DNA of 64,000 bases. It comes from Macrocystis pyrifera. Its lineage: Eukaryota > Sar > Phaeophyceae > Laminariales > Laminariaceae. The notes under the pieces are model-generated. The model did not search any database and was not told the origin of the DNA. It saw only the letters and a program-made list of their open reading frames with translations. Shown here one piece after another: positions 26,577-60,390 of this stretch (its first letter is position 1; every line of letters starts with the position of its first letter). Location: the NCBI GenBank assembly GCA_031763025.1, contig JASSKH010000027.1, positions 10,820,055 to 10,884,054 of the forward strand. The letters run 5' to 3'. A program made the translations under genes and the position numbers.

Positions 26577-26759
26577 TCATACGACCTCAGTAACGCGCAC
26601 CTTGCTTTCGGATTGAGTTTGATCCTCATCCTTGTCCTCATCCACATGTATGACGTCGTCGGAGGGGTCTACATCCATCGATGGATCCCGTTGCTGCCCG
26701 CCGCCAGCCTGGTGTAAGGTCGAAGTGCCTCTGGAGCTTCCACCCCGGGTCGTGGGCAT
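26577..26759 (-). pseudogene. Probable hAT transposase N-terminal remnant
   Basis: A 60-codon frame begins with Met, is rich in Gly, Arg and Ser, then turns strongly acidic (DDVIHVDEDKDEDQ). Such low-complexity leaders precede the BED zinc finger in hAT transposases. It lies upstream of the C-terminal piece on the same strand inside the same element, with the BED finger and core missing. The assignment is by context and is weak on sequence alone. Confidence 0.4.
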
Positions 26760-27042
26760 GCTAGGGTGTTGCTGTGTGGTGCGTCGGTGTTGTGTTCTGT
26801 TCTGTTCGAGCGCCTCTTGTGGTGTGCACAGGGTGACGGCTGACAGCTGCTGCTGTATTTAGCTGTTGTAAAAAAACGACACTTCAAATCCTGTTGGGTG
26901 TCGACCTATCGTCAGTGTTTTCAGAACAAAAGCAGATCCGATCTCATATAATATCACATACTGTACCTGGTATGTACAAAAATACATACGGTTGTTGGTG
27001 TTTATATCGTTCTATTCTGCGTACTTGTATTGGTCACTACTA

Positions 27043-27605
27043 CAGCTCAGGAGCTAGCTCATCTATCCCCTATAGCTCAAGCCTTGAAAACGTGTGCAGA
27101 TGAGCTATCGCCTATAGCTCAAGCTTTGAAAGTATGTGCAGATGAGCTACCCCCTATAGCTCAAGCTTTGAAAACATATGCGGATGAGCTACCGCCCATA
27201 GCTCAAGCATCGAAAACATGTGCAGATGAGCTACCGCCTATAGCTCAAGCTTCGAAAACATGTGCAGATGAGCTACCGCCTATAGCTCAAGCTTCGAAAA
27301 CATGTGCAGATGAGCTACCGCCTATAGCTCAACTTTCGAAAACATGTGCAGATGAGCTACCGCCTATAGCTCAAGCCGAGGGAAACATGTGTAGCTCATG
27401 TAGCTCCTATAGCTCATGTCGGGAGTAGATGAGCTAGCTCATGTAGCTCCTATAGCTCACTCTGGACATATATGAGCAGATGAGCTATCCCCTATAGCTC
27501 AAACTTTGAAAACATGTGCAGATGAGCTACCCTCCTATAGCTCAAGCCAGGAAAACATGTGTAGCTCACGTAGCTCACGTAGCTCACCGGTGAGCTAGCT
27601 CCTTA
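27043..27605. repeat. 42-bp minisatellite, right subterminal array of the hAT element
   Basis: This is the same unit and the same orientation as the left array, best preserved at 27190-27370 where successive units differ by one or two bases. Because 42 is divisible by three, one frame stays open as a 14-residue repeat (ADELPPIAQASKTC). The distal part degenerates into AGCTCACG and AGCTAGCTC strings toward the terminus. Confidence 0.88.
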
Positions 27606-33872: not shown

Positions 33873-34561
33873 ACAACTGTTAACAGCAGTAGTAGTACCG
33901 GCTCTCTCGTAAGAAAACACACTTTTCATGTGAAATCTGGCCTACACTTTTCATACGATTAAGAAAGTACGCAGTCTAGGCACTAGCTGTCCATAGCAAC
34001 ATGGTACTCGTAAAAAAATCTCCCCGCTCGGCGAGGATAGGGATCCAGCCTACAGCTTACAGCTTACAGCTTACAGCCGGATTTCAGAGACGCCGATACT
34101 GGCTGTGCATACAACGTGCTCTATACCGAGTACTCTATACCGAGTATCTAGTATTGATAAGCATATAATGTATCCTGGTATATATTGTTGCCCACCCCCC
34201 ATGGTGTGATTGACCCTGTACAGCAGGGGTTGACACTTACCCCCTGCGCAGCACAGCGCTGCCGGCGCGCTTGTTTGTTGTTTGCACCGTGAAGATGTCT
34301 GGTATGAGGGCACGCGAGATCGAAGTATCAGACCTATAGCTGTAGCTTGCAAATATGAGCTTTGAGGAATTTTCGATCGCACGACTTTTGTTTCGTTTTT
34401 TTAGACTTTTTTTTCAAATTAGTACCCAGGTATGTGAGAGCGGCGTTGCGGGGCCTTCCACAGTATTATTGTGGTGTGTACGGGTTGTATAGACCTTGGC
34501 CCAGCTGCGATCCAACGAGTAATTAAACTATACCACCCTAACCCTGCCCCTCCCCCCCCCC

Positions 34562-34650
34562 GGTACCCCGTCTCGAAAGGGATGCTTGGTCAATGGTCGA
34601 GTGATTAAGGCAAGCAAAAAACTGAGTACCCCCCCCCCCCCCCCCCCCAT
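34562..34650 (+). mobile_element. Short LINE 3'-end copy with 22-base C tail, just upstream of the lipoxygenase
   Basis: Starting with GGTACCCCGTCTCGAA directly after a 10-base C run, the stretch matches the last 22 or so codons of the LINE at 55.2 kb, then TGAGTA and 22 C. It ends 51 bp before the lipoxygenase start codon, so it lies in the promoter or 5' untranslated region. The copy at 60245 begins at the same point after a C run. Confidence 0.75.
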
Positions 34651-34701
34651 CGCGTCCCTTCCGTCCCTGTTTGGTAACGCCGACGTCGAAAAAAAAAACA
34701 G

Positions 34702-34948
34702 ATGAATAACGCACGAACCTTCAAGGCGGTTGTTACCATCGCCACCTGTTCGGCAACCGCGGCCTTCGTCCCCCCCGCTCCTCTTGGCAAGACCTGTTCC
34801 GCCGCGCCCGCTTCGTCGCCGCGATCCGGCGGCGGCAAGACGGGCCAGGCGCTCGAGAGCCGCGGCGCGACCTCGGCCGTCGCCCCCCTGAACATTGGCG
34901 GGTTTTCGTTTTCGAGCATCGGCGAGAGCATCGGCGAACTCTTCAACG
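34702..34948 (+). CDS. Lipoxygenase exon 1: signal and transit peptide
   Basis: The exon opens with MNNARTFKAVVTIATCSATA, then the AAFVPP cleavage motif and a Ser/Ala/Gly-rich leader, ending FNG in phase 1. The donor is GTGAGT. The Met is the first in the frame downstream of the inserted C tail. Confidence 0.85.
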
Positions 34949-37900
34949 GTGAGTGAGGTCCAGCGAAGCGAGAGCGCCTTCGGCTTCGATCAGAATGGGT
35001 GTTATTGTGTTCCGGTGTGCCGTACTCACACGTACCAGGCGGTACTCAGAACGGGTTAACTGATGCGATACCGAAAAAAACGAAAACACTACCACTCTGT
35101 AGCCATATACATGTACCGTTTCGACTGAACATTAATGTACAACCTGTACTCATATTTCGGGACATATTGGTATAATTCATACCGGTATTAAATGATCGAC
35201 GGGAGGAACATACGAGTTCACGATTTCGATATACTTACTTAACACCATATATATGATATAAACAGCCGGTTTTCCTTTGAATAATTGAGAATTGAGTTCA
35301 CGATTTCGATGTACTTACTTGACATCATATATGTGATATAAACAGCCGGTTTTCCTTTGAATAATTGAGAATTGAGTTCACGATTTCGATATACTTACTT
35401 GACGTCATATATATGATATAAACAGCCGGTTTTCCTTTGAATAATTGAGAATTGCCTTTCCGGTGAGCAAAAACAACCGATATTTTCTTTTTTTTTTTTT
35501 TTTTTTTTCTTAGAATTATATTTTTCTCACAGATGAAACGTAACCTACTCTAGAACATGCTATACGTTCAATAATGATTATTATTACGGGGGTCTATAGT
35601 TAGCAGGACCTATGGCATACATAAAAACCTATATATTTTGCGTGTTTTTTACAAACAATATTTGGTCCTGTTAACTATGGACCCCCGTAATAAATAGGTA
35701 TCGATCCACAAAAAAAAACAAAAATCAAAATCATGCGTGACAGGCTCGTAAAACAGAGGGTACGTATTATTAATAGTATTTGGAGACGAGGCGCCTCGCC
35801 CATAAATCCCGATTTCCTTGGATCTTTGAAATCTCGAGACTGCCAATGCCGATTTTTTTTTTTTTTTTTTTTGTTGTGTTGTTGGTATCATCGACCGATG
35901 TCACAAATGACGACCTTTTGTTGCAGTGAAAACATTTTGACTGAGAGGGAAATACAACTCTTGACAAAATGGAAACCAGCATCTTCGATTCTCACTCTCA
36001 TCGGAGATCGATACCTGGTACCAGGTACCAGGTACCAGGTAGTCAATTAGGAAAATCGGCTGTTAACCCTTTTAGTACCGCAGTCCCGATTTGGGGACAA
36101 ACCAGTCTAATTCCAAGTGTTTTGTCCACAAAACGGGACTGCGGTACTAAAAGCGTTAACAGCGGTTGTTACATGATACATCGACTATTATAGTTCGTTC
36201 ACTATCAGCATCAAAAACACGGGCATGCCAGGGGATGAATGGACAAAATACGTTCGATACGATATGCCGAGTTTTCGATATTTCGAAATATCGAAAAACT
36301 TGATACGATATCCGAAACCACCAATAGAACGAACGAACGAACGGACGAACGAGAGGCAACTTCGAGGGCGGAAGGCGAGATAGCAAAAGCAGCGCCCCTG
36401 TCTCTTCTCTGAAGCAGTTCAGGAAATTATCTGCCCTGAAAGATGTATTGCTGTATGTAGATCATCATGGATTCTCTTTCCCGAAACTTGCGCTTCGTGC
36501 CCGGCCTGTATACAGCAGCAGTATAAGGAACCCCCCCCCCCCCCCCTCCCCGAAGCTGTGATATTGAAAATTTTCTCAAAGCTCATCTTTGCAAGCTGAA
36601 GTTTGGCGTGATAATTCGGTTGCGCATTCTACGGGTGTGTGGGTTTTCAATGCAGCAGTATATGGCAATCGTGTTGTTGGAACTAACAGCGTTATCTGCG
36701 TACACGCTCAGAGTTGTGCCGTGCAAGCACTGCTGACTGCCTGCACCCGCGCCCAGTACTCCGAAGGCGGTTTCCATGTATTTCTATGTTCTACTACTAT
36801 AGCCTCTGTGCTTGTAGCTTCCATCAAATATAGGTTTTCGCTCGAGGGCGTTATTTTCGATCATGGGTTGGGTTTTGTGGCAGAGGCGGAGTCTGCAGTT
36901 CCAGTACATGTTACGAGTTCTCACTATTAATAGAATTCAGAATGGATTCCGATCGGTTAGCCTCCCGTTTTGATTCCGTCCGTTTGTTGTCGTGATTTGT
37001 AAATTTGCTTATGTTTTCGACGAGTAGGCCCCGCCAGGGACACCGGAACCTGTCTCCCGCAAGACGACAAAGCCGACCAGCCGGGCCGCAAGAAGCAGCT
37101 GGAGAAGAAGCAGGAGGACTACAAGTGGAGCACGTCGGTAAGAATCGACTGAACGACTGACTGTCCGCGACGGACCGACAGGCAGACTGACTGAATGACT
37201 TACTGACCGACAGACCGACATATCGACCGACCGACCGACGGACTGACCTACGAACCGGCCTTTGGACAGACCTACGGACCGACGAACCGACGGATTATCT
37301 GACTGCCTCACTGAATTACCGAGTGGCCGAAGGGCCGACAGACCGACGGGCCGACTTACGGACCGACGGACTGACGGACTGACGGACTGGCTGACTAAGT
37401 GAATAAATTAATATCAGAATGACCGACCGACCGACCGACTTACCTACCGATCTACAGATGTCCAGTGCGACTGCTCCGTCCATTCAGTATTAGTCCGGTC
37501 CCTCCGTTGTTGACTTTTTTCTTGTTCGCTTGGGGTCAAAACGTGGTGTAAATTAAGTCTTGCGCTGCTGGGGGCCACGGAAACGAACTACTTTAACGCA
37601 GCAGCGATCACTCTCTCGCCTTCATGGTGCTGCCCCGGCCCCAAGTGCTTTGTCCCTGCAATCGCAGTTGCGAGGCGGTGGTGCAAATGGTAGTGATATC
37701 TCAACGAACAACTGACCGCCCCGTTCTACCCGCGTGCTTGTTCTGGCCCTGTTATCGCGATGCTGTGCGGTGCAAATTGGGCCTATCAACGATAACACCA
37801 ACCACACCTCGGACAGACAGATCCTGATCTGTGCTGTAGATGATCTAGTTCATCTCCTGCAGTTGTGAGAGATTGTGCAGGGTCTGCATAGTACAGATCC

Positions 37901-40900
37901 ATCCCAGAAAACATGTGCTAGATCATGCAGACATCACGGGTCCCACCCAACAACATGAGCTGGATAATACAAGATCAGGAGTAGAGCTTTTGCTGAAAGA
38001 TCTAGATTATCAAGTGGGAATCGGTGATATTTCCGGCGTGTACGTACAACCTTTTCATAAGTGCACACAAACTTCGGGGGCAAACGACTTTGGAGATTAT
38101 TAGAGTGGTTGTGGTATTTGCCGCGTGGCAAAAGGGAGTGACTGACAGCTCGGTTTTTTTCCCCTTTCCTTTCCTCTCCCCTCGTCCATCTCGTCGGGCT
38201 CTTGCGGTTTTCGGTCTTTGTTGCACCTGCGAATCGGTTTTGGATATATATATATATATATTCGTTCTCACTGGACACGGAAAGGGCATCCCCGTCGGCA
38301 CCCCGTACCTGGAAGGCTTTCCTCCGGGCGAGGAGTTCCCGAAGGTGACCTGGATCGCTCAGCTCGTCGGCGCGCTCCTCAGTATCTCGGTCGGCACTTT
38401 CAGGTGATGGGTACTTCCATACTTTTTTCATTCGCTCGTTTCGTTGTCGAGGCTTGAAGCCCCACCTCTTTAGTCTATACAGTCTATTATAGCCCCCTTC
38501 AGGTCTTTTCATTCTCTCACTTTTGGTAGGGGGTCAACAAATCGGAGTTATTAGTTTTTTTTTTTTTTTTTTTTTCGATCCTAGTGCTGAGTGTTGTAAA
38601 GGTCGGCATGTTTTCGTACTCGTGGGTTCGAATCCCACGGTGGTCACGAATGTAGATCCTGTGCTCGTCGTTGGTACCGATGTAGCCGCGGAGACGTCGC
38701 AGTGTAGAAAACGCGGAGAAGCCGCCATGGTGAGGTCGCGAGGCGAGGGTCCTTTGTAGCCGTCGTTGCGGCCGACGTAAGCCGAGCAGAGTTCTTCGTC
38801 GATATTTAGCAAGGAGATGCTAGACCTAGTCCGACTCGGTGGGGAGGACTTTTCGTCCCCCGCGGAGTCTTGCGGCGAAATAGTCTCCCGATAGCTATCT
38901 CCCGGGGACGGGTCAACGCCGTCAATGACGTGAGACTCCTAGTGACCCGAGATCTGATATTGCTTGACCGGTGACGTGTCCTTCCGAGCGTGCGTGTTAC
39001 GAGATCTACGATAGGTATCTCCGACCCTGGCTTCCACAAGTAGCTGTATTTGTTTATTCATAGTTGGAAACCACGCGGTGCTCTGGGCTATTGCTGTCAA
39101 GCAGTAGCTGTATCTTTTCGGGAGTTGGAAACACCCAAAACACGATGCTTCAGCGTGCAGGGCGATTTGAGACCTATTCCGGAGACCAAGAAAACGGTTT
39201 GGGCGCTTCGGTAGGGTAAACGCCGGTAGCTCTCGGGGGGGTTTCGCGTTCTTTGTAGCTGAACGGAACCACCGTCCAGGTTTTCCGTTCTTTTTTTTTC
39301 GAACCACCGCACACTTGTCTCTTTTTGCATGCATTGAAAACGCATCGATAGCCGACGACATGCCCCTCGTGGCCCAGGCGAGGGCGGCGATGACATGCCC
39401 CCCAGGTTGCACCTAGTGACGGCGTCGGTGGAAACGTGATATGCAGGTAGATCCGCCGTGTCAAAACGTTTACATATAATATGCAAGGCGCTTCGCTCCG
39501 CGGGCGGCCTACGCCGCCCGCTACGCTCGCTCAGGAAGGAAACATCAAATTATGCGAAGCGGACAGAGGTCCATGATTGAATATTTTTTTTTTTTTGGCC
39601 CCTGTAGTTAGCTGCAAACTGGCGACTTGATAATGCCAAGAGTCCCGCCGCCATGCTTCAGGAGAAAACAGCTCGGACGCCACATATGCTTCGCGTCGCG
39701 GGCGGTTTTCCGCTACGCTCGCTCACACGTCGTACATACGTACATACCCCAGGCAGGGTACTTATTTTCTTCTTTCGGTATGCTCTGTGTCTGTGTACTC
39801 GTCGTATGTACGAAAGATAAAGCACAGAACGGCACAGCAACACAGCAAAAACAATGAAAATGAAACCGAAAATTTCTAAAAGAAAAAAATCCCCGTCCCT
39901 TTTCGTGTAATTAATAATTTACTACTTGAGTGGAACACCTTACACCAGTCAAAAAAGAAAAAATGAAAAAAAGAAATCTTACAGCAGAGCTTCTCTCTCA
40001 GCCCCGTTCGCCGCCCGCCCCTCTCGCGACCATCTCGCCACCGATTCAGTCCGGGTAAAGCTTCCCTCCCTCTCTTCCACAGTGAGCCCCGTCGCCCGCC
40101 TCGCGTGAAGCCCGGTGCTCACCGTGGACCTCGACGCAGGCTCGACAATGTTGGTGCTCATTCGGGATAACTCCCTCTTGTGACTCTCAGCCCGGTCGCA
40201 AAAATATGCACCACTTGAATATTATCTTACAATCCCGAACGAACCTTAAATACTCGTACGTACTCTATCCAAAATCACAAATGGAGGCCAGACAGAGCCT
40301 ATTGATGCATCCCTCGTGTCTCGAGGCACACGCGACGCCTAGGCACGAAAGCGGCGACCGCGCTCCTTGCAACTCCCCCTCTACTCGCCAGCATCCGCTG
40401 ACACCCGCGACGGTGCCGGGTTCGCCCGCGCAACCGTGCTCGGAGTACACGCACGCACACGAAACGAAAGAAGAAAAAAGGAAAGAAGGACTGAAAGTAC
40501 GACGAGAAATGGAGAAAACAAAGACTCGCTGGAACGGTCCGGCAACTAATAAACGGAGGCGATTCCCAAGTGGGAGCTCTGAGAGGCCAGGGATGTACCA
40601 ACCGAGCACGCTCAGAGGTTGAGATATCTATAAGCAGTTCTATATATATATATATTCGCTGGCAACATCAATGTTGATCTGCGATATGCCAGCTTAGGTC
40701 ACCACGAGGGTAACACCCCACTCCCCGAAGGGGAGCCTTGCGCAATATATACCAGGTACATGGTATGTATTTTATCCTCCGGCGTTGTGGTAAGAATAGA
40801 GCTTATGCGAGACACGTTCGGGTTGAAATTATGTGTATAGGATGCGAGGTTCAAAAATGGGGGCACCACATTTCGGGAAAGTTGTTTGTGACAGCCGGGG

Positions 40901-43900
40901 CGATGCTCTTCGGCTGATGAAATAGCTACCCAACATCGCTGGAAAACCAGTTTTGTTTCCATTATTTTTCGATATGTCCCCAAGACATGGCGTTGTTTAC
41001 CGGAGAAGACGTCTCGATATTTTTTGTCGAGATCAGGTTTTGACTCACTAATAGTATGGAGCTCCTCAAGCGAGGCGCTTCAGAAAACATTTACTGTGGG
41101 TGAACATCTATCGTAGCATACACCATCATCGACATCAACAGACAGACTTTGACGGACAGATACCCACCAAGCTATTGGGACGCACAGACACCAACACATG
41201 ACATGTGTGACGCCCACCCGCCAAGCTAATGGGACGCACAGAAACGAACACCCTAGGGACGCACTCGCGGGGGAAGCAACCCACCCGGCCCCTGCTGTGA
41301 CGTTCACCCTTCCACGCTACTGGGACGTAGGCACACATGCCGACTACATTTGTGATGGCACACGCGGTCGGTGCATCGTGACGCAGAGGCGATCGAAGCG
41401 AGTCTTTGGCACACGGGCAGTGGGTATTGGGACGCGCAGACGTCCATCACAGTGCTGCGACGCAGCCGTCATGGTTGCATAACGTTACGCGCTTCTCTTT
41501 CGCCCGCTGTTGGTGTGGAAACCCCCGCCCGCTCTGGCAGTCCGAAGGGCAGAACGGGGTCCCACATCTGATGAACATGTCATGCACGCATGAGTTATCG
41601 TGTAGTTTTGCAAGTATTTATGTATAGATATATGTTTCGATATTTCGATATTTTAAGTAACTTTGATCTTTTGATATATATATATGTCGATGTGCTGGTG
41701 TTGTGATGCTGTGATGTCGTGATGTTGTGATGTTGTGATACTCGTAGTGTTGGCACGGGTCTATGGTCGTACGACTGCGGCCATGCATGATAATGACTAC
41801 ACCCCTCCCCCTCTCCCCTCTCGATGTGCCGCCGCATCTGCCGCTATCGAAATGCCCCGAAGGGGGACGCTAGGTGCCGGAGAGATCGTGGAGGCCCTGT
41901 CCAGCCTTGACAGAGCGAAAACCTTCGTCAACAGGGTGTCAAACCTCGTCAAGGCTAACCCCCCGGCCAGGGAGAGGGTGAGCGTGAGGATTCGTTTTTT
42001 GGCGAAAGAGTTGTATTGTAGGCATTTGTGTTTGCGAAAAGGTCAGCGGTGATTGACGCTGCGCTGTCGAGAGTGAGCGCGAAGAAAGAGCGGTTGCTGG
42101 TGGAAGAGTTTGTGTTGGCGATGGTGTCGTCGACGTTTCGGGCATCGGCGGTGCTTCGTACCAAGCGTGTCCCAAATTGAAAGAAAATTTTGTGTTGTAT
42201 ATTTTTATACGAACGGTCCACATATTTAAGGGCATATTAGTACATGGTAAGCTGTGCTTTCGGAGCGTGGTCGGCTTGCGCCATATATACCTATGTATAT
42301 GTATCGCGCGTGCATGATGTTTTGCGACGTGATCAGTGCTTCGTACCGATCTGTCCCATCATAGAAGGAAGTTTTGTATGAAACGGTAGTACAAATTGAA
42401 AAGCGGGAAGCGCGAGATCGCGAGTCAGCAAGAGATCGCGAGTCAGCAATATCAGATGAAACTCGATCAGCAGTGGGAATGGTGAATGAACCCTATGCGC
42501 GACAAAAATGAAGGCATGTTTATGCCGGGGAGGGAGAAGGGACGACACTTGTTACCATGGCGTGTCCAGAAGCTGGAAAGTAAAGCGATGATCCGGGTGA
42601 AGCAAAAAAGCAAGAACGATACGTACCCCGCTTTTTGTAGTCCCAGGCAGAAGGGGGTGTACTAAAATCAAGTAAAACAAAACGTAACAACATGGTTTTC
42701 ATTTTTGACTAAAAAAAAACCCAACCCGCTAGTTTGTTTTCAATTCCGACATGGTGGCGAGTGTGGCTCCGTTTTTTTTAAAAAAATTTTTTTTTCGTGG
42801 AACCCCTGGATGATTTTAGAAAAAAGAAAAAAGTAATATAAAAAAGGGTCCTTTTATTTAGGGGGAGAATGGTGCATAATAAGCGTTTTTTTTATTCCCC
42901 GGTTCCGTGAGTGCAATTGGCGTTTATGTCAGCCGAGGGTTCTCCACTACACTGTCGAACGACCCACGGGATTTTTTTCGCCTTTTTTTTTTCTAATGCA
43001 CTTACTTCTTCGAGCTGTTTTGCTTATTTATTTACGTACCATGTACGTTTTTTTTTTTTTTTTTTTTCACTTTTTTTTATGTAGGGGGAAAGTTACAGGT
43101 ACGTTGAATTTTGTACGTCAAGAACTTTGATGGAATTAAAGAACTATCAATAGCTGGTTCCGTGCAAAAAAGTACGCAGGGTATGTCACTCCCTTCGACA
43201 GTCATGTACTCGGTGTATTTCACGACCTATCCTTCCGTGCTCGAGCGCTGAACTGCCAGAAAGCTAGCTGCGACGAAATCAGTCTTGGGGTTACCACGGC
43301 GATTTTGGGGGAAATATTAGTTATTCCAGTTTTTTTTTTTTTTTTCGTGCCCACGTTCTCTTGCGATAGCGACCATTTTTGGTGTTACGGTAGGTAGGTA
43401 TAATCGTAAAAAAAACTAAAAATGACACGCCACTTTTTTTTCGGAGTCCAAGACAAGAGGGTATACCAAAAACAACGTACACACACGTATTTTCAATAAC
43501 AAGCCATTTTTTGCAAAAAAAAAATGTCCGAAAAATCTCTCGGCGTTCTGGTTCGTTTCTCATTCTGACCTTGAGAAGAAATGTGTCAAAAAAGGTCGGG
43601 TTTTTTTTGTCTCTTTTTTTTTCGTGTACTCTCGTTGGAGGCTGAGTTTTGTTTTGTTTTCCCGTCTGTCTGCTGCGTGCTCGATATTCACTCACTTTCA
43701 GGCGATCGACATTGAGGACTACGAGGAGCTGCACGCCTTCCCCGTCAGAAACCCCGACTCCATGTATGACTTCGAAGACGATGACACTTTTTCGCGCGCC
43801 TCCGCCTGCAGGGTAAGGATTTTCAAGGGGGGGGCGTACTCATCAGTTGCTTGCCTCGGTAACTGGACCATCGACCACGCACTCCTTTCGAAGCGGAGCA

Positions 43901-46900
43901 CCGTTTCCCTACTCTTCTTATTAATCGAAACGCCCCCAACATTTGGACGCTCATCTCGTTTTTTTTCCATACTGAAGTATAACCTGTATTACAGTACGTT
44001 GCAGGGTTTGCCTACCTTGTTATCCCCTTCCTTTTTTTGCCTTTGGTGGCCACCGTCTATCTCCACACACCGCGGTACATGCTTCTTATCATATCGTACA
44101 CCACTCTGGGCGGAAACACAAGGAGCGCTTATACAGAAATATGAAGACTCAACGGACCTAATATTTTCCGGCCATCGTGGTGTTACGCAAGGTGGCACAC
44201 CCACCCCCTGGAGTGATTTTCCGAGCCGGCTTTTTCCAAAGCATGCCTTGGGGGGGGCACATACCACGAAAACGGTGGCCTAAATCGGAAATATCACGTC
44301 GCGGTCTTTCCCGTAGACGCGTTCATCGCTTCGGGGTTTTTTATTAACACTCTTCCCGTTGTTATAACGTACGAGCAAAATCAGTTTTTTTTTTTTTTTT
44401 TTCGAGGGGGTTTGTCACCTCGCGTGTGGTACGTACGGTATATAACGCTTTGGACGGAAATGTATGGACGGTTTGGTATTCATATCAATGGTTAAAATGT
44501 TCCTATATTTTCGTCCAGAGCGGTACTGACGTTATTAATAGATGATGTCGATATTGATTTGACATTCGTATTCCGAACTTATCTCCATACACTCCGTATC
44601 CTGCTATGCGTAATCTGATACCAGGTACCAGTATATACCGCTTAGGTTTCCTTGTTTCGTCGCTAAAATGTGTGTGGCTTCCACGAGCACGGTGCGGCCC
44701 GGTGGCGACGAGACGAGCTTCCGCTCAAGGAGAAGGCTGACAGTTTCTGACGCGCTTGACCAATCTGTCTTTTCTTCGTCTCCCCCTTCGCGCGTTTGCC
44801 GTGCCGTGTTTATGTTGTGTCGTGTTGTGTTTTGCTGTGCTCTGTTGTGTTGTGTTGCGGTGCTACTTTGTGCCTGCGTTTGGTTTTTCATTCCGGGCGG
44901 GCGGGCGGGCGGGCGGGCGGGCGGACGGGCGTGCGTGCAACGAGCAGGCGCCAACTGCGTTGTGATCGAGAAGTGCACACAGGCCACCCGCGCCAAGCTG
45001 AAAGTGTTGGACAGCGACCCTGCCTACAAGGTGAGAGAGCGGGCGTGCCCCAATAGCCAAATAGTATAGACGGCATACATCGTGTCACACCGTCACGTTG
45101 CCTGGAATCATCGCGATGTCGCATTGCGTCGTCGCGGTAAGACCACGTGGTACGAGCGCAAGCAAGCAAGGCCGCTCCGCGAAAGAAAGCGGGGTTCCGC
45201 TTCTCCGAAGCGGGGAGCGCGGCGCCGAAGACGGCCGAGTCCATCGCGTTGTCTCGAGCAAGGCGTCATCGCCATGCGCGAGTACCGTAAAGGACCAGAT
45301 AGTAGCGGTCCGTGTTCACGGCACGCGTACAGGACCCGCGATGGTTGACTGAAGTGCCTTCAGGTGGTCGCCAATAAGCCGCGGTTGGCGTGGGGTAGGC
45401 GTGAAAAACCACCACTTGTGCGTTTCTCGACGACTCCGTTGTCGGCGATGCTGTGCCTGATGTTGTGTTTTGTACAGCAGTAGTGTTTTCTTTACTTATC
45501 GATGGGGGTGGACGTTTTGTCTAGTGTTGATGTTGCCTTGGTTGCGTCGTGGTGGTGCTCTTTTGCTCTTTGCCTTTCACCCTATTAGTTGTCGTGCTTT
45601 CTCACCGACACCCCCGTTCCCTGCCTGCACACACCATGTGCGGACGATGGACCCGAGCGCGCCGTCGATGCAACCGTACACTGAAACAGACCTCAAACAC
45701 CGAAATATATATCCAAACTCGCCATTCTGTTCACCCCCCTCCCCCCTTTCTACGCACTCACCTGTGTTGCATTACCCACAGAAAATACTATTTTTGGCCG
45801 ATTCTACAATCAAATAAATGCCTGCAAGCACCTCTACGTCCGTTTATTTCCTTGCCGATATATCTCGTAATTCTGCTCGAGCTCATAAACTTTTCCATTG
45901 ATCCAATATTTTGGCAAGGCGGATGTGGGCTCCTTAGTTTACTCCCATGACGGTGGCAAAGCGGCAGCAGTTTCCGCGCCCTGCTTCCAGTCGGACCTCG
46001 TCGCCGAAGTTTGAAAATGGGTAAACCATATGGCCCCAGGCGTTTGAACTTGATTTTCTTGTACTGGAGCCAAGCATATTTTTGGCCGCTGTAGAAGAAT
46101 AGTCTCGTATCATGCTCGTACTAGTTTGCTTGGTAATTTTAGTATCGATATTTAATGATTTTTTGGTAGATCTCAGCACGGCAGCAGAAGCTTAGCACAT
46201 GGTCCGTCGCTCTGCCGTTGCTCTTCCCCAGGATACAGTAGCTGCTGTATTATTACGGGGGTCCATAGTTAACGGGACCAAATTTTGTTGGTAAAAGTAG
46301 GCAAATATATAGGTTTTTATGAACACCATAGGTCCTGTTAACTATGGACCCCCGTAATAGTAAGGCCAGCACGTACCACGTGCTTGCGTATGCGTCGGGA
46401 CAGAAACCGGAGTTCTTTGGCGTGTTTCGACTGTCGGCACAAGCGAGAGCAGGATGATAGCCGTTTTGTTGCATGTTTTGGGTGTTTTTTTAGGCACCAT
46501 TCTCAGGTCGATCGTGGCAGCTGGAGGTTCGATCCCTAATTTCGCAACGCGGAAATGACATGGCTGGCTGTGTGCGAGCACACAGACGGAAATCTGGTAA
46601 ATTTCGTCAAGGTCTTCGAGTCGGACCTCGGCCGTGAAAATGGCCTAATCGGGCGGCGCAATTGCCTCGACCGAAACTGCCGTTTTGCTTGAAGCTGCGG
46701 TGAACCGAATTGATCCAACCCTAGGACGGCCAAGCGGCAACCAGCCACAGAACAGACCCTGCCATGACTTGATTGAGTTCTTCTGAGCGTCGTGTGTCAT
46801 TTGGAGGCTTCAGTGGGCAGCACGGCGACCGTGAAGAGTGCCTTAAAAGGCACTGTGTAGGGCTGATCTCTTGCCGAACGAACCCCGGTCTCAATAATAT

Positions 46901-48754: not shown

Positions 48755-48804
<50 letters not shown>

Positions 48805-51800
48805 TGCTGTCAGCTGAGCCAAGGTGAGGAGGCCACCCCAATCTTCATGCCTGGCGAGGGCAACAACTGGAAGATTGCCAAGGCGTGCTTCGAGTCCGCT
48901 GACTTCATGTGAGCTTGGCGCCAGCCCTGGAGTTTCTCCTCGAACACACATGACAACGATAAACTCATGAGGATAGAGGAGGTGTTCTCCTGTGTGACTT
49001 CTTGCGGGGTTCAGCACAGAACAACACAAACAATGAAACCAAGCTGGTCGGGGAAAAACTAAATCCGTGCTTTTGGTTTCTCGTCAGGCCGTTCGTAGGA
49101 CCCCGTGTGCGCGCAGTACAGTTTTGCGCCGCCAACAGTTTCAGGTTGCTGCAATCGGTGACAGGGAGAACTGAGCGCAAGAGGTCCTGACGACGGCCCT
49201 TCGCGTCCGTCTTTTCGCCGCTGCTTTTCTTTGCTCCTTCCTTGTTTCGCTCGCGCCCCACCGGCAGCATCCACGAAATAGTTTCTCACCTCGGCAACAC
49301 CCACATCGTCCTGGAAGGGCCCGTCGTCGCGATGAACCGCCAGCTGCCCAAGGAGCACCCTATCTACGACCCTGCTGCAGCCCCACCTCGAAGGAACCGC
49401 GTTCATCAACTACTTCGCGCAGCAGGTGTGCCGTCGTTTCTATCATCGCGCCAACGGTTACCACTCCCAACGGAAACCCACCACAACCGTAACCACGCCC
49501 AACGGATATACCCCCAACGGTAGCAATAAATATCAAACGGTGCGTAGCATTGCGATGTAGGTATAACCCCCTCGGTCAACCGTGAAAGGCACACCGCGGG
49601 CAGATCATCTACAGATCATCTGCGGTTCATGTACAGATCATGTACAGATCATGTACAGATCATGTACAGATCATCTGCACATCATCTACAGATCATTTCT
49701 ACTGGATGATGTAGATATTTCAGGGAAGATTGGATAGATCCCTGATCTGCATGATCTATCGTAGCTTGCGTTGCCGGGTGGGAGCCATACAGTCTGCACG
49801 GTCTACATACAGCAGGACACGCTTCCTGGGTTAGACCTGTGGTGTGCAGGTTCTGCACAGCACCTCGGAACGCGGCAGTTTATTTTCCACAGTAAATGGT
49901 CTATTTGTAGATACTGCGACGCTTTGCATTCTTCGGTAGGAGAAGGTGTTGATCAATCACCGCAGCTGGCGCTTGGTGAGCGGGGAAGGGGTAGTTTCGA
50001 GTGACGGCGATTTGGTTTGGACCGTCGTCGTCAGCGCCGTTTCAGTTCACGCGCGCCGGAATTTTTGATGCTGACGGTGCTATTCGAAAGGGTTCCGTAT
50101 CTCGCTCGATAAGTGGGCGTCTCGTGAACCCTGTGGCTGCCGCTGCTGCCGCTGCTTGTACCTATTGGCAGTGCTGTCGATACACCCGTCGCCATCGCAC
50201 GCGCCCAAAAGGTGCGAGCTGATCGGGTTGGTGCAGATTTCAAGTGCAGCGTTGCGAAACGCCTGGCTCGCTTGGTCTCATGCCTACTGCCGTTGTTGCC
50301 TTAGTCCATGCTACGCTTGTGTCTTGCGTCTGTGTAGTCTGAGTTTTGACGTTAAATGTTAGTTTTTTCCCCCCCCCCCCCCCCCCCCCCCCGTTTTTCG
50401 GGGCAAACCGAGGGAGGCGTTGCGTCACTTTATTTTGATTTTGGTAAACGGAGGGAAGAGACGACTGGGGTTCGGGTCACGGACCGAGTCACTCTGGCAC
50501 CCGAGCACGCCCGACAGCATTCCTCAAAGCGGTATATCCGGCCAGGCGACACTTCCTGCAAAATTCGAGTGCCAGAGTGATTCGGTCCATGATCCGTACG
50601 CCGACCGTCTCTTCCCCCTCGGTTTTTTGGTTTCACTCCCTCCCCCCCCCCCCCCCCCCCCCCGATTTTCTTAGCGAAACAACACGAAGCAACATTATTT
50701 TGGCTTCATCATCAAGCGCGTGACACGCGAAAAAGAACGAAACATCATTATTTTTTTTAGCTTCATCAGGCGCGTGACACGCGAAAAAGAAAATAACAGG
50801 AGTGTTGTATTTACATAAGTTTACGTATCCCCCCCTCTGTGTGCCTGACCGCTATACATAAGAGCGTCTTCGCGTAGAACAAAAAAATAAACAAACACAC
50901 ACACACACATTGCTCATAAACACGCCCGGCATCCTCCTTCCCGCCGCGATGTTCTTTTTTGTGCGTCGTGTTTTCTGTCCGCGATCTCTACGTTTTTTTT
51001 TTTTTTTTTTTTTTTGCGTCGCCGTCGCCAGCTGCTCATCATCGAGGGCGGTGCCGTTGACCGCCTTCAGGCCAACGACATCAAGGACTCTTTGGACCTC
51101 GTCCTCGCTCAGGTGCGTTTCAACCGACCGACATCGAACACCCCGCGGCGCCTGTGTCGTTACGATACGGTGGCGCGAGAGCTCCGTCCATGGTACTGAG
51201 GTGTTTGACCCGTATTTGTTTCTTGGGCACGCTGTTTTTGCACGTGTGAGCGGTTCGGGAATATAGAGAAAATTACTACTTTTTTTTCAGTAACGGGGTG
51301 TTTTGTTCGCGAGCGGTTCGAGATGTGAGAGAAATGCCATTTTGTGGTCATTCGGACGGGAAAAGGAAGCGTCTTTTCGTCTATCGAACTGAACAAAAAA
51401 TAAGCTGAACGTTGTAAATAAAACCTGCGTCGTTTGGGCGCGCCGTGTTTTCGTGGGCTACGAGCAGTTGTTCCGGTAGAACCACCCGAGTCCCCCTCGA
51501 CGCGATACAATATCCCACATTATCATGTGAAACCCATACGCGATTTGCGCACCGAGGCGATTACACTTTCAACCAAAACAGCGCAAGTGTGGGTTACGTG
51601 CTTGTTTGGGGGAAAACCGGCCGAACAAGTCTTATTTTATCCCCGCGTCCGCGACGCGATATAATAGAAAACCCACAGCATCATGTGATACCCTTACGCG
51701 CAAGGCGTACGTACACCCAAGTGGCAGCATTTTGAAAATCCACGGCCAACTAAAAAACGAAAACATGTGACAGGCGTATGATACTTACCTCCCGGCCTGA

Positions 51801-52915
51801 AAAAGCCGAGTAGCAACCCCGCTTTTTTTGTCGAACTCACAGCTCACGCGTTTCTTCTACAGTTTTTTCTTGCACGCTATGTACCAACGATCTTTCAATG
51901 CATAGGAAATTAATTGGATCGGGTGAGGCGTTCTGCTCCGAAGCAGGGGGGCCTCGCCCGGGGTAGACTCCGCGCTGAGTGCGTCCTCACCGCGGCGCCC
52001 CACCCCTGGGATTGAAATGACCGTGCAGATAGCGGCTCTCTCGGTTTTCTTAATGTCAGCTCGCTCGTTGACGAGGTGTGTTGTTGTTGTCGAACTAGGG
52101 GTTGGCCGAGCTCCGATGTCGCCCGGCGAGAACAGCGCCGTGAGTGCAGGCACAGGGCCCCGCGTCGGGGCGCTGCTTGGTGTCGACCTCGTCAGTGGGC
52201 GAGGCCTCGCGTGAATCCTTTGTGTTCTTCCGGTTCCCACCCTGTTCTCACAGGGTAGCTATTACGGGGGTTCATAGTTAACGGGACCAAATTCTGTCAG
52301 TAAAAATAGGCAAATACAAAGGTTTTTATGTACACCATAGGTCCTGGACCCCCGTAATAGAGTTCGACGGAATGATCGTCTCCTGCATGTAGTCTCTTGA
52401 AAAGTTCGGACCAGAACTGGATTCACCTCTTTTTGTGCCGAAAGGGATTGGTTTGATTGGCTCGCGATTTTTATGTAGTGCTTTATTGAAATAGGTGAGG
52501 CAGCTAGCGTGCACCGAATCGATGTTTGTGTCCCAGGTGTATGCGTATCATCAGGCCCTTGACGTGGCGTGGCATGACGGCCTCTACCCCTAGTTTCGAT
52601 GCGGTCATCCATATGCAAGCCAGGCCCATACGTGGTTCGTAGTAGGATGCATGCATGCAAGCCTGCATGCAGCCCCTCCTTCGTGCGACTCGCCCAACAC
52701 CTCAAGGCTCTTCGCGCTTGATGCAAGCACCAATGTCTGTCTGATCGGTGAAGACCCGACGTGCTCCGTCCCGGCATTGTAGGGATGCGAGGGTCTAAGG
52801 TCACACGACTGCAGCCATGCATGATAAGGAGTACAACCCCCCCCCCCCCCCCCCCCCCCACCCCAAAGAAAACAAAGCAAAACAAACCCAAACCAGCAAA
52901 CCAAATCCAACAAAC

Positions 52916-52968
<53 letters not shown>

Positions 52969-54421
52969 CCCTGATGCCGCCAACGCACCAGACGCTGGAG
53001 CGCATCAAGAAGGACTTCTCCCCCGAGGCCGACTTTGAAGCCCGCCAGGTTACCAAGAAGGACTTTCCCGGCCGGTACATGTACCGCGACGTTGGGACCC
53101 AGTACTGGGAGGCCACGCACACCTGGGTCAAGGAATACCTCGACGTGAGTGCTCTTGTTTTTGCCACGTGGTACGAATAGTTTTTTTTTTTTTTTTTTTT
53201 TTTGGTTCTTGCAGGGTGCATCGTCGATGCTCGGTGCAACGCACGCGTGCGCGGTGTGTCCGCAGATTTCATTAAGCCTTCATCCCCACCGATTCCCAAT
53301 GCAACACATATGCTCGGTGAGTTGCAAAGTTCATCGTAGTAAAACTTACGAAGCTGGGCCGAAAAGTGGACATGCCTCCAATTGCTGATGATGCGATCCG
53401 GCCCTGGTTACATTTCAACCAACACATGCGCGTTTGTTTGTATGTTGCACGCTTTTCTTTTTTTTTTTTTTTTTCTTTTTTTTTTTTTGTTTTCTGCGTT
53501 CGATGTCACGAGTTCTTGTGTGTCGGATGCGGCACATCTGTGGGTGAGCGAGACGGTCAATCCATCACTCGGCTGTTTTTTTACTCCTACGTGTCATAGT
53601 AACGCCTACACCACGCATGCTCACTTTAAATTGTAGTTTTCTACTCGACTTCAAAGCATGCGTCCACCAAAGCATACGTTTCACCAGGTATACGTTTACG
53701 TTGATTGTACTTATTATATACTCATACGTGTACCGGAGCCAGCAATTTCGGCGTGTTTGTTGCCTGCCAAGGAGAGCACGAGGTGCCTTTTGCTCGTATT
53801 TTCGGTTTTTTTTTTTTTTTTTTTTTTTTTTTCCCTCCCATCACGTTTGTCATCTTCGCCATTCTCTTCTCTCCGCCTCCTAGTCGTAATTCAAGATCCG
53901 CGACCACGTAGCAGGCTCTTCTCCCCCCTACCCGCTACAACTCGTGCCTTGCATTTTTTATCGCGAGAAGACTCCAGCCCTTTCTTCCCTCGTCGACTCG
54001 CGTCGAGTACCTGGCCGCGGGTGTTCCCCCCCTCGCACTCTATAGTCAGTCCGGCTTCTGAAATGGTGACCGGACGATGTCGACGTGCCACACCTAGAAT
54101 TTTCTGGGGGATTCGGGTCGTGGCGCAGACAAACCTCGAGACCCCTCTGTGGTCTGCTAGGATTCACGTATCGGCAGCGAGGTCCTTCGTCAGAAGTACT
54201 CGGCAAATCGGTCTGCTGTTGCAGCGGGAGCGACGGTTGAATTGACGCACGGCACGTACCCGGTATTTTGCACGTGGAAGTGTGGTGTTTATTTTTCCCA
54301 ATCGGTCGGAGCATAAAGAATATCAATGAAAAAAAGTACTCGGTGAAGCGCGCGGCCCGCTTCCTGCCCCCCCCCCCCCCCCCCCCCCCTTCCACGACTA
54401 CGGCCATGCATGATAGTGAGT

Positions 54422-54478
<57 letters not shown>

Positions 54479-57400
54479 TGACCTCTCTCACTGACGCTTT
54501 CTTCGCTCGCTCTATTTTGCTTTTGATCGGTCTCGTTCTTTGCACCCTATGTGGCCGGTCGGTCGGTTTGCCTTGACCTTGCTTCGCTATGCCATGCTTC
54601 GCCTTGCCTTCTTTTTCCAACGGACAACTTGACCGACTTTTGGCCCTGACACGTACACCGATGCAGCTGTACTACAAGAGCGACACGGACATGGTCGAGG
54701 ACTATGAGCTGCAGGTACGGGCGGTGTGGCGACCGGAAGAGAGAGTCGGACTGGTCGTGGGTGTATTGTGCGGGTATGGTGTTTCTCAAGGGCCGCGCCG
54801 TGATCAGGCCGCCGCCGTATGCAATCGGTCCGTCAAGGCGCGTGTTTTCACTTGTTGTCGTGTTCAGCGGAAGGCACGGGGTGGAGACGGAATGTGTGCG
54901 AGTGCGTGTTGGCGTGTGTCTTTTGGTTATCGGCGGCTCGTCTGTTTGTTTGCAAGTGCGCGTCGTGGCTCGAGCTGGACGCCTACATCGTTCTTTATGC
55001 CTCTCGTCTAGACAACTCATTGAAGCCATATGCAAGTCCGCCTCATGTTTCTTAGTAGGATGCAGCTCTCTCACCCTTGATACGACTCGCGGAAAACCTC
55101 ACGGAACTTTGCGCTTGTCGCAAGCAATGTCTGCCTGGTCGGTGAAAACCCGGCGTGCTCCGTCCCGGCATTGTAGGCGGATGCGAGGGTCTATGGTCAT
55201 ACGACTACGGCCATGCATGATATTGAGTACCCCCCCCCCCCCCCCCCGGTGAATCCTGTAAATTTCAGTTGGAAGTGGGGAGGATATGAGTTCTCGATCG
55301 TAGACCAGTATACGTACCTTGGCGCAGAGATCTCTAAATACTGCTCTCGGGATACACACATAGCACGAGTAATAGGAAAGGGTAAAGCGCAGATAGGCAA
55401 GATGGATGCGGTTCTAATAGACTCGTTCCTGAGCACTAGGATCAAGAGGTGCACCCTGATGAATGTGATGGTACCAAAGCTGAAATATGCGGGACGCGGA
55501 GTTCTTAAAACAGCTGGAAACAGTAAAAAATGGCAGCAGCTACAGAAATACGAGGATGCTCAAGTACGAAGAGTAATACAGCAATACTATTAACAAGAGC
55601 TGGGAATGCACTCACTGAAGACAAATAGAGACATAAGGAAGTTGAAATGGAGGTATGAACTACCTGGCAAGGAACATGCAAAAAAAGAGGTTGCCAGCCA
55701 TGGTTGATAGGGCTTTACGGGAGAAAGTAACAAAAGGGCGAGGTGGAATAAGGTAGGAGGTGGAATAAGGTGGGATAGCGTAGTCGGGGGAGTATGGAAG
55801 GATATAGGAGGAAATCAAGAAGAGATGATGTCCGTAGCGAAGTTTGGGAGGTTCCAAGATAGAAATGCAAAAAAACATACAAATGGAAAGACTAGTGCCA
55901 ATAAATAAAAGGTGACAGCGGAGAAAATTTGGAGATATACGGGGGATTAAGCGAAGGGCTAGGGATGAAAACGCATTTGCACTGCCCAATGGACTTTGTG
56001 AAAACGATGTGTTAGAAGAGGATAATGTGAAATTTATAACGAGGAACGGAATGTGTTAGAAGAGGAGACGAGGGAAATAGACGAACGTGACATGGAGGAG
56101 ATTGATAAACTAGATAGCAGCGAAAAAACGATCGCTTTGCTAGGAGATAGATGGTGGTCACAGGCGGCGAAGCAGGAACGGCATATGATTTGCAAAAGTG
56201 TTCAATGTAATACATGGAAACAACGTAATGAGCGCCCAACTGTTGGAGGTGTCTCTGTTAGGACTAGGAACGTGTCTCGAAAGGGATGCGTGGTCAATGG
56301 TCGAAAGACTAAGGCAACCAAGAAATGAGTACGCCGCCCCCCTCCCCTGCAAGCAATGTCCGTCTGGTCGGTGAATATTCGACGTGCTCCGTCCCGGCAT
56401 TGTAAGGATGCGAGGGCCCGCGGCCATACGGCTACGGCCATGCATGACATGGGTACCCCCCCCCCCCCCCCCCCCCCGCGCTCCCTCTTCCGTCGTCTTC
56501 ACCCTTCCACATTGTGTCGATACACGCACATTCTCACACAAACAGGCGTTCATGACCGAGATGACCGACATCGCCCAGATGAAGTGGTTCAAGGACTTCG
56601 AGACCACCAACGACAAGAAGGCCCTCGTAGCGAAGGTGAGTACGGTACGGTACGGTACGGTGCGATAGCGCCTTGTGTGGAGAACTCCGGACGGGCGGAA
56701 GTCACAGGCTGGGCGGCCGCGTCTGCGGCGTAAAGAAAAAAAAAAAGCCTTTCTACTCGTACGGCAGGGGTGTTTTTTTTTTTTTTTTTTTTTTTGCTGT
56801 TGATCCTCACCCGAGGAAGCTTCAAACCTCACCCAAAAACTGATTTCGTTTCGGAAGTGTAGCACGCTGAACCCAATGGGCAAGGCCTTGGCCTACGTGG
56901 GTATATGGCGCACAACTCATGCAATGGACCAGTCGAGAAGCCCCGTGGGCCTGAAATATTTTTGGCCCAAAAGCGCTGGTACCCTCGTTGTGGCGCGCAC
57001 GCCTCCAAAACTCGTTTGCGTCATCCGGGCTGTGTTATGGTGTAGCTGGCAGTGGAGGAAAGACGCGTCACCACCTACCGCAGGTCTGTCTGTACCGGAG
57101 TCCGGAAAAATAAGACCGTTGAAACCGTGCTCTTCCGCCTGGGGCACCGGTCATGTTTGGATTATCGCATGTAGAAGGCCTTGACAGCAGTGATCGATGT
57201 TTTGTTATTCGTGCAGCGCTTGACGTTGAAGTACAGTGCGGGTCTTTGGGCGCGCCTGGGGCGTTTAGTTTAGCCCCTTCGCGTGTCATGAGCGCACATA
57301 CCCGATGTATATTGCTCTGTCAAATGGTTAATTTTCCAAGCCAGTCCGGCCAAGGGGTGGACAGATAGATCCGCAAGCAAGCAGCAACATTCAGTGCTGC

Positions 57401-59229
57401 TTGTGCATACGTGCGTGCGTGCGCGTGCATGCGTGCGTGAGATCGCGCGTGCGAGCATTCCGACACTTGTGATCATCACGTCGCACTAGGCAAACGCCTA
57501 CACAGCTGATGCCTACAGTTCTCCGCTTCACCCCTCCAATCCGTCACGTCGCGGTGGCAAGAAGAAAATACCCACCTACATGTTACGTGAACTTTGGCTA
57601 CTGTTAACCCGTACGCGCCCCTCCCCTCCCTGCCCCCCGCCCCTCCGCCTTCCACCGTTCACCGCCTGCCGTGCGTTGAATTGGACTCCAGATTCTTGCG
57701 AGCATCATCTACTCGGCCAGCACTCTGCACGCCGCCGTCAACTTCCCTCAGAAGCCTTCCATGTCCTTCGTGCCATCCTGCCCGGGGTCGATGTTTGCCC
57801 CGCCCCCCACCGACAAGGTACGCCGCTTGTGCTGGGAATGCGAAACCCGCCCTGTTTGCGGGTGGTGGCAATTTTCCCGATCGTAGTGGTGCTCATAGCA
57901 AGCCGCGGTAATCAATCCTAGAGAGGGGATGTGGGCAGCCTCCGGCCGGAGCAGGTTCGGAGTAAAAATAGTCCTGTAGGGGCATGCCAGGCACTTTCTA
58001 CGTTGCCGAGAATCGTACCCCCAATGCACGCACTGTTGCGGCAGTAGCGAGCACCGCTGTATATAGCAGGGCTTCAGCCACGTGCGGCTAGCAGTGGCAT
58101 GCGCATGCATGCATGCATGACGGCGTGCACGCGCGCGCGCGAAAACGAAATGAACACCACAGATGCATTATTGCGGGCAAGCAAGCGAGCAAGATGCCGG
58201 TTCCCTCAACCAACGCAACACAACTTTTGCGGCGATCCAAACAGCGGGTGCAGCGAGAGAGAGGAACATGGCCGTTTTATGGTACAGTCGATAAACGGCA
58301 TGGTATTCAATCAAAGACAGGACACGCTTCCTTTTTTTAATTTTTGGTTTTTTCCTGCACCGATTTTTGTTCTGTTGTGTCTCTTCCGTGTGCAGGCGGG
58401 GAGGACCTTTGAAGAGTACATGTCTTACCTGGTCCCCATGGAAATTGCCACCACCCACGTCTCGGTCCTCACGCTGCTCGGGTCTGTCTACCACACCAAG
58501 TGAGTCTTGTCCACGTTTACGTTTCCCGGAGTTGGGTCTATACGATGCACGGGATCCAGATCATGATTTTCTGAGTGGGGTCTGTACGCTCTAGGTCTGG
58601 CAGAGACAGATCACAATCGGCAAACATGTACAGATCATGCAGGTTCGCCAAAGGTCGATCTCGTGCTTTCCATCCCCCCCCCCCCCGGTGGATGCGTCGG
58701 TCGGTGACGGATGACGGGTGCGTTTCTGCCGAGGCGTTCTATAAAAAGAGGTTCACCCCAAAAATATCTGAGGTTCCTCACTTGACCTTAAGGAGCTCCA
58801 TACCTCATCCTAAAACTGACTTTAGCCAAAATCAAATTGCATCCCGATTGATAATTTCATGGCCCAAGTATTCAAAAACGTTATTTTTCGAAACTAGATT
58901 GTCATTCCGACGATTGTGGGTTGAGGAGCCCCGTCATTCAGATAAATAATTTAGCGGAAATGTGCTACCTCTATCGTAGAACAACCCGTCTGCCACCGCA
59001 TCGCGCGGGCGATTCGCTGGTCTAGTCGCCCTCTGGGTTTAGGAGGTAGAAGAACGGGCGTCATTTCACGCCGTGTGATGCACTTGACTGGTACATACTA
59101 CTAGACTGACTGGCTAGCTGGCTGAGGATCGGTTGATCGAGTTGCGGTGGGTTTGGTTGGCGTGTTCGATTCGCGAGATGGGGATGGCGTAGATCGATTG
59201 ATTGGTGAGTTTGACTGGTTGGTTGGTTG

Positions 59230-59277
<48 letters not shown>

Positions 59278-60060
59278 AATTGATTGGTCGATTTGTTGAG
59301 TGGTAGGTAGATGTAGATGTATTGATTGGCTCGGTGAAGCAGAGCGGATGTGTGTATCTCATGGACATACAGACATTGCCGCACGCAATACTGCTGTTGG
59401 CCACAGGATAATCACGAGATATAAATACCGAGCCACGCCTCTTCCAGTGCCGGCTGGGTACTGTTTCGTTCTTCCTTGCTCCCCACTTACCCGAGGGCCT
59501 CGCTGTGTTGTGCTGTGCTGAGCAGGCTTGGGCAATACAACACGGACCAGTTCGATGACGACCGCGTGCGTGTGCCGCTTGCCAAATTCCAGCAGACCAT
59601 CGAGGATATCGAGATCGATCTGATGGAGACGTGAGTTGCTTCTTATTGTGCTGGGTTGGGTTGGGTCGGGTTGGGTCTTTGTTGGGTCGGGATGGCTTCG
59701 CTCGGCTTTGTTCGTTTTCGATCGTTTTCGATCGTTTTCGATCGTTTTCGATCGTTTTCGATCATTTTCGATCGGTGGTTTCCATCAGTTTCGGTTCGGT
59801 TTTTTGTTTTTTTGGTTTGTTAGTTGGCTGCCTCAGCCCCCCCCGCCCGCCAGGGGTTGACCTTAACCGATGTTTTGGTGATTACGAGTTGCGAGAGATA
59901 CAGATAAATGTGGTCGTTGGATTCTCCTGGAGGAAGAGTGAGCATCGCGGAAGTCTGCTCTTGAGACTTCCCTTGATCCTTCGTTTTACTCACATGCCAG
60001 GTATACCATTTTTTCCCGTTGCATTTTCTAAGCGCTACGAATCTCACAAGGCAACGCTGT

Positions 60061-60093
<33 letters not shown>

Positions 60094-60320
60094 GCTTTTC
60101 AGAGGAACTTGCGTAATCGCCTGAAGCCTTGATCTCTTTTGAAACTTATTTGCTCTGACCCAAAGATCTCGTAGCGAGGCCTTTAAGTCGTCCATTATCA
60201 CAAAGCCTGAGCACTTATCTTAAGGCACGACTGACCCCCCCCCCGGTGCCCCGTCTCGAATGGGATGCGTGGTCAATAGTCGAAGGACTAAGGCAAGGAA
60301 CACATAAGAAACACATAAGT

Positions 60321-60390
<70 letters not shown>

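Follow-up and report, generated by a model that had tools for sequence, protein, structure and literature searches.

We have analysed a stretch of 64,000 nt from the genome of the kelp Macrocystis pyrifera (contig JASSKH010000027.1 of assembly GCA_031763025.1, positions 10,820,055 to 10,884,054 of the forward strand; called the window below). It carries copies of a long interspersed element (LINE) and of a family resembling short interspersed elements (SINEs), here termed S2. Both families terminate in GAGTAC followed by runs of C, and most copies also have a C-run in front of them. LINEs and SINEs are mostly thought of as A-tailed and targeted to A or T. The GC content of the window is ~50%; that of the assembly, described as 537 Mb in 223 contigs with a largest contig of 26 Mb, is 50.4% (PMC10498591). 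The assembly is based on PacBio reads (PMC10498591), so the exact lengths of homopolymers may be off.

Retroposon copies and their C-runs

Nine copies with a 3′ end lie in the window, five of S2 and four of the LINE (Table 1). Positions within the elements are those of alignment references that end at 3263 (LINE) and 510 (S2). A run of n Cs is written Cn, and the lengths of the 3′ runs in the window include the C of GTAC.

Table 1. Retroposon copies, C-runs and 5′ junctions in the window (position 1 is its first nucleotide).
Feature	Position	Strand	Remarks
C10	34552..34561	+	5′ junction (target-side C tract)
Short LINE 3′ piece	34562..34628	+	alignment from LINE reference 3196, zone of the predicted shared 3′ structure
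C20	34629..34648	+	at 3′ end of short LINE piece
S2, 5′-truncated	41744..41800	+	reference 455-510; C-rich tail ACCCCTCCCCCTCTCCCCTC after 3′ end
LINE 3′ fragment	43836..44064	-	reference 3068-3263; C8 behind it = G8 on + strand, 43827-43834
S2	52598..52834	+	reference 297-510
Tail of preceding S2	52837-52965	+	C23, A-rich part (AAAC/CCAAA type, 52860-52916), C49
C23	54367..54389	+	5′ junction
Very short S2 3′ piece	54394..54422	+	reference 481-510
C55	54423..54477	+	at 3′ end of very short S2 piece
S2	55014..55229	+	reference 289-510
C18	55230..55247	+	S2 tail and 5′ junction of LINE
LINE, 5′-truncated, decayed	55248..56332	+	reference 2068-3263; TGAGTAC end
C-rich LINE tail	56333..56347	+	GCCGCCCCCCTCCCC; 5′ junction of next S2
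S2, 5′-truncated	56348..56455	+	reference 401-510
C22	56456..56477	+	at S2 3′ end
C10	60235..60244	+	5′ junction
Short LINE 3′ piece	60245..60321	+	alignment from LINE reference 3196; repeated ACACATAAG in its 3′ end
C68	60322..60389	+	at 3′ end of short LINE piece

The tracts of C and the 5′ junctions that the initial annotation lists were confirmed, except that the tract it placed at 34629-34650 ends at 34648. The copies it listed were likewise recovered, but it had missed three, i.e. the S2 copies at 41744-41800 and 52598-52834 and the minus-strand LINE end at 43836-44064. The composite tail at 52837-52965 could be a single mixed tail or the product of two events.

Copies elsewhere in the genome were taken from two samples. 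The blind sample consisted of 20 stretches of 10 kb, taken at 1-Mb steps along the single contig C189 with their content ignored. Alignment to the long references identified 18 elements with a 3′ end in these 200 kb, 11 of S2 and 7 of the LINE. The biased sample consisted of loci L009-L037, which were retrieved by a LINE-plus-S2 query and hence are enriched for stacked copies. Four short T-rich matches without a 3′ end were removed before the main counts of junctions and tails. Each element was scored for C-runs of 6 or longer, taking the 40 nt downstream of its 3′ end and the 25 nt upstream of its start.

A downstream C-run is present at 18/18 blind elements. The upstream C-run is found at 13/18, compared with 1.3% of 40,000 windows drawn at random from 19 stretches as background (binomial p 3e-21, in which stacked elements count as independent). 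Upstream runs of at least 6 A, G or T were each found at 0/18. Within the window itself the downstream run is present at 8/9 copies and the upstream run at 5/9, and the corresponding figures for the biased loci are 76/94 and 58/90. Upstream G-runs of at least 6 were also lacking at the window copies (0/9) and the biased copies (0/90). The Cs thus lie on the sense strand of the element, on both sides of most copies. The initial annotation had noted C-runs behind the LINE and S2 3′ ends and at several 5′ junctions, and both features are borne out by the blind 200 kb.

The elements also lie one behind another. In six of the 18 blind elements the start lies no more than 130 nt behind a preceding element, which is on the same strand in every case and never on the opposite one, in agreement with the earlier suggestion that copies enter older tails. 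The stack in the window (55014-56477) has the order S2-C18-LINE-C-rich-S2-C22. Among the 12 blind elements that are not stacked, seven have an upstream C-run that is not the tail of any detected copy (p 5e-11). C-runs are very common in the kelp genome; 59 tracts of at least 10 C were counted in 19 blind stretches, of which 13 are tails, 8 stand in front of an element (some do both) and 42 lie beside neither family. The self-seeding that had been proposed, with each insertion creating the next target, is therefore supported in part; tails do serve as landing sites, but they are not the sole target. Tracts of at least 9 C that are not tails of the LINE or S2 were compared by their flanks in all sampled loci of the kelp genome and the window, with the exception of L050. 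An upstream end was shared in 0 pairs among 130 flanks and a downstream start in one pair among 160, so that no third family at C tracts is clearly visible in the sample.

The stretch L050 (C189:13000001-13010000) was excluded from the tract count as it holds a kilobase-long C-rich array. This extends over ~1777-3052, well over 1 kb, with C-runs of up to 60 interrupted by single A, T or G nucleotides. A row of four S2 pieces occupies 1946-2690 on the minus strand of locus L012; in front of three of them is ACCTCCC(A/T), which follows the C-run. Two of these pieces have identical extent, which could result from insertion with duplication or from local tandem duplication.

The LINE, S2 and their common 3′ end

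The LINE is of the reverse transcriptase type and its 3′ end is present in thousands of copies. The copy L058 (C201:9099951-9104300, minus strand) has an open frame of 870 amino acids with a reverse transcriptase domain (PF00078, E 4.6e-31), and the R2 and LINE-1 chains match this protein by sequence. The TGA stop codon of the frame is part of TGAGTAC, and is followed by a C-run of 31 including the C of GTAC. A 29-mer from the LINE 3′ end occurs exactly 3455 times genome-wide (1704 + 1751; control 0), and of the 2591 candidates for the reverse transcriptase piece of the window, 150 gave scored matches, all with E 3.9e-37 or better. A Pfam scan of the decayed open reading frames of the window and of locus L016 gave nothing useful.

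Upstream of the reverse transcriptase in L058, in another frame, there is a weak match to the endonuclease family PF14529 (E 0.0089; 16.3 bits with a cut-off of 27.4). The starts of 45 LINE copies are scattered over reference 2068-3231, with one further copy starting at 1, while the 3′ end is common; such 5′ truncation with a common 3′ end is the pattern of LINEs that carry an apurinic/apyrimidinic endonuclease (APE). The LINE also has the non-A simple-repeat tail and very short 3′ untranslated region (UTR) that mark the RTE and RTE-X groups. It probably bears an APE and belongs to one of these groups. The LINE end looked tRNA-like by eye, but such an origin was abandoned, since the stretch concerned forms the end of the open reading frame.

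Full-length S2 is ~510 nt. No long open frame was found in the single S2 copy that was translated. ARAGORN found nothing in the window, nor did Rfam at gathering score, and no dedicated search for an RNA polymerase III promoter was made in S2; L058 gave a single Rfam match, with E 4.5. We note that an S2-like stretch lies in L058 directly upstream of the coding part of the LINE (minus strand 592-787, + strand 3564-3759) with no intervening C tail. Either S2 took the 5′ region of the LINE, or the LINE inserted into an S2.

The initial annotation had regarded S2 as unrelated to the LINE. This does not apply to the 3′ ends, which are homologous over the last ~70 nt. The two consensus ends align with a score of 35.5, a value reached in 0/2000 shuffles. 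The predicted folds of both have a terminal helix, GUGCUC/GAGUAC, that closes two arms. The columns that are paired in the LINE are identical in 41/42 cases and the remaining columns in 14/33 (14/25 without gaps), counted on an alignment in which gaps were placed by hand after the consensus alignment; circular shifts reached 41 identical paired columns in 0/74 cases. The stems thus appear to be conserved between the two consensuses. When four copies from the window were folded, one S2 retained the second arm as well as the terminal helix, and the others adopted different folds. That S2 borrows the 3′ recognition of the LINE, as had been suggested, is right in so far as the 3′ end is common to both, but recognition of the fold by the reverse transcriptase is something that we infer.

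The short LINE pieces had been described as having a fixed start. Their starts do cluster, in 2/7 blind, 2/4 window and 14/34 biased LINE copies, but in a narrow zone (LINE reference 3196-3204) and not at a single base. This zone is close to the 5′ foot of the helix at 3198.

Proposed insertion at C tracts

We favour a model in which one LINE machinery carries out target-primed insertion at C tracts, using the 3′ RNA end that is shared with S2, and consider this reasonably likely to be correct; the same judgement covers S2 as a non-autonomous family moved by that machinery. The scheme is built on observed features, namely the C-runs that flank most copies on either side and the orientation of these runs, the stacking, the shared 3′ end, the reverse transcriptase domain and the copy number. 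The reverse transcriptase of the LINE would recognize the common ~70-nt RNA end, i.e. the helix GUGCUC/GAGUAC with its two arms. At a C tract the strand carying the G-run would be nicked, and its G 3′ end could prime on the Cs behind GUAC of the RNA, so initiating target-primed reverse transcription. The inserted element would then be flanked by Cs on both sides, on its sense strand, with the RNA's own Cs contributing to the tail. Since the tail of a copy is itself a C tract, later copies could enter it, giving same-strand head-to-tail stacks.

The origin of the downstream Cs bears on this scheme. If the RNA had no tail, the target would be a C/G homopolymer and all the flanking Cs would be target DNA that had been split or duplicated, with no growth of C tracts by self-seeding. 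In the blind sample the C-runs have similar medians, 13.5 upstream and 11.0 downstream (12/17 copies with both, the longer run being behind in seven and in front in five), which fits the splitting of a pre-existing tract, and the 42/59 tracts that lie beside neither family demonstrate that targets exist without the LINE or S2. Yet the downstream run is present at every blind copy and the upstream run at just 13/18, there are C-runs as long as 55, 68 and 119, and in the window the downstream run is the longer in five of six copies (medians 10 upstream and 20 downstream; 6/9 copies). Medians in the biased loci are 6.5 upstream and 9 downstream (62/83 copies), the run behind being longer in 32 and that in front in 24. 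The base after GTAC is G in 21/35 LINE copies and A in 33/56 S2 copies, a difference between the families which points to an RNA that extends beyond GTAC. Together with the downstream C-runs of copies that have no upstream one, the family-specific base speaks against a tail derived purely from the target, and we regard a tail-less RNA as unlikely.

The stacks might also arise in one event, by a reverse transcriptase that jumps from RNA to RNA and so generates rows such as S2-LINE-S2 as concatemers. End-to-end template jumping is a property of R2-type enzymes. The stacked elements are on the same strand in both the blind sample and the window, as concatemers would be, and some neighbours, in L009 and L024, are joined with hardly any intervening C. 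This leaves the upstream C-runs of seven of the 12 non-stacked elements unexplained, however, and formation of the stacks in this manner seems improbable. It might finally be supposed that C tracts, being fragile or open, capture any retroposon, and that the LINE has no preference of its own for C. The abundance of C-runs in the kelp genome would suit such capture, but not the one-sided orientation, with no upstream G-run at any blind, window or biased copy, nor the lack of a clear third family at the C tracts that are otherwise unexplained, and we give it very little credence.

Several results weigh against insertion at C tracts as we propose it. Five of the 18 blind copies have no upstream C-run of at least 6. 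One of these, in L044, was kept as a miss; its alignment starts too far inside the element, and a profile search places the element after a C-rich stretch with C76. An earlier count with shorter profiles gave a downstream C-run of at least 7 at 16/19 and an upstream run of at least 6 at only 7/19; these profiles ended within S2, although many of its copies actually continue further upstream. The blind stretches all come from one contig. RNAalifold found no pair in 95 aligned copies (from 98 candidate 3′ ends, of which two failed the filter for length and identity and one more was omitted); this may be expected of decayed copies, but it provides no support. The fold energies are modest relative to shuffles, with z-scores of -1.8 for the LINE and -0.7 for S2.

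Target-site duplications beyond the Cs are not convincing overall, which again counts against the proposal. Exact matches with a decoy control gave 16/126 with a mean of 16.1 for the decoys. Local alignment gave 26/119 at score 6 where 14.5 were expected (overall p 0.08). Extension of the match past the C-run by at least 2 nt was found in 14/77 compared with 7.4 (p 0.012), falling for longer extensions to 4 compared with 2.3 for at least 4 nt (p 0.2) and 1 compared with 1.5 for at least 5 nt. There is one clear duplication, at the S2 at 4092 of L048, with C11 and TACTT on both sides. If duplications are made they would be mostly inside the Cs, and therefore indistinguishable from simple splitting of the tract. 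A search of the sampled DNA of the kelp genome for empty sites gave none; both flanks matched a common locus in 1/70 clusters, and that match did not extend up to the insertion.

Within target-primed insertion at C tracts, self-seeding as a by-product is plausible, given that the tails are C tracts and are used as sites. In a more far-reaching form, the LINE and S2 would undergo self-propagating homing to C tracts, priming on G runs, lengthening the tracts by slippage on their C tails and creating new targets, which would produce the same-strand stacks and account for some of the genome's unusual load of C tracts. This is possible, and we advance it tentatively.

Relation to known elements and other features of the window

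Simple-repeat tails are usual among RTE-type LINEs, with (TTG)n and (TTGATG)n in plants, and (CA)n, (CAA)n, (CCAT)n, (ACAATG)n and (CTTGTAA)n for RTEX in green algae (PMC3747384). The kelp LINE resembles the RTE and RTE-X LINEs in having such a tail instead of poly(A) and hardly any 3′ UTR; poly(C) is absent from the tails listed in that account, which in the sections concerned does not mention insertion into the element's own repeat or stacking (PMC3747384). The brown alga Ectocarpus has thousands of copies of RTE, RTE-X and RTEX-N1, the last a non-autonomous element of ~600 bp that shares its 3′ end with the autonomous RTE-X (PMC12477816). By description RTEX-N1 resembles S2 in kind, i.e. 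in its brown-algal host and shared 3′ end, and the kelp LINE end likewise occurs in thousands of copies. Term searches of the main text of that report revealed no mention of C tails, or of C tracts as targets, for these families (PMC12477816).

The LINE and S2 share their 3′ end sequence, as do SINE/LINE pairs of the stringent type, in which a non-autonomous element likewise has the 3′ end of the LINE together with a stem structure (PMC3747384, PMC5135761). In the kelp pair, by contrast, the proposed structure overlaps the last codons of the LINE and is closed by the terminal GAGTAC, and the tail is C. The use of a repeat tract as target is shared with Togen, a non-LTR (long terminal repeat) element specific for (TG)n microsatellites (PMC4640811). 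As in repeat-specific LINEs a single kind of tract is involved, 13/18 blind copies lying at C tracts and five without. Togen is placed near NeSL, in the group with a restriction-like endonuclease (PMC4640811), whereas the kelp tract is a homopolymer and the endonuclease is APE-like by a weak match.

Pattern and protein searches of viral and genome contig collections gave no relatives outside the kelp genome. Seven contigs that matched one 16-mer pattern were rejected, having no likeness past ~21 nt. Our searches of one open-licence library turned up no account of retroposons with C tails or C targets, and the supplementary notes of the Ectocarpus study may already contain such a case. Repeat tails and repeat-specific LINEs are thus already known, and it is the use of C alone as tail and target that appears to be new. 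If correct, homopolymer specificity can settle on C/G, there is a natural case of an element whose tail is its own next landing site, and part of the poly(C) content of the kelp genome could be accounted for. The shared 3′ end of ~70 nt offers a ready template RNA for biochemical testing.

The retroposons at 52598-60389 are interspersed with pieces of a lipoxygenase-like gene (52965-60545). Five joined exon pieces of this match PF00305 (E 8e-7) and lipoxygenases of solved structure. Long open frames at 11103-16967 contain a motif like YVDD together with an HSGR...GR stretch of tyrosine-recombinase type, as in DIRS/Ngaro elements; four pieces of these frames gave no Pfam match below E 0.1. A repeat of ~50-110 nt containing GTTAACTATGGACCCCCGTAATA is found in both orientations at no fewer than six places within 18817-52369, and was also seen by eye in loci L013, L038 and L054. 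Finally, a tandem repeat of 42 nt (CCTATAGCTCAAGC...GATGAGCTACC) forms two arrays ~2 kb apart at 24597-27588.

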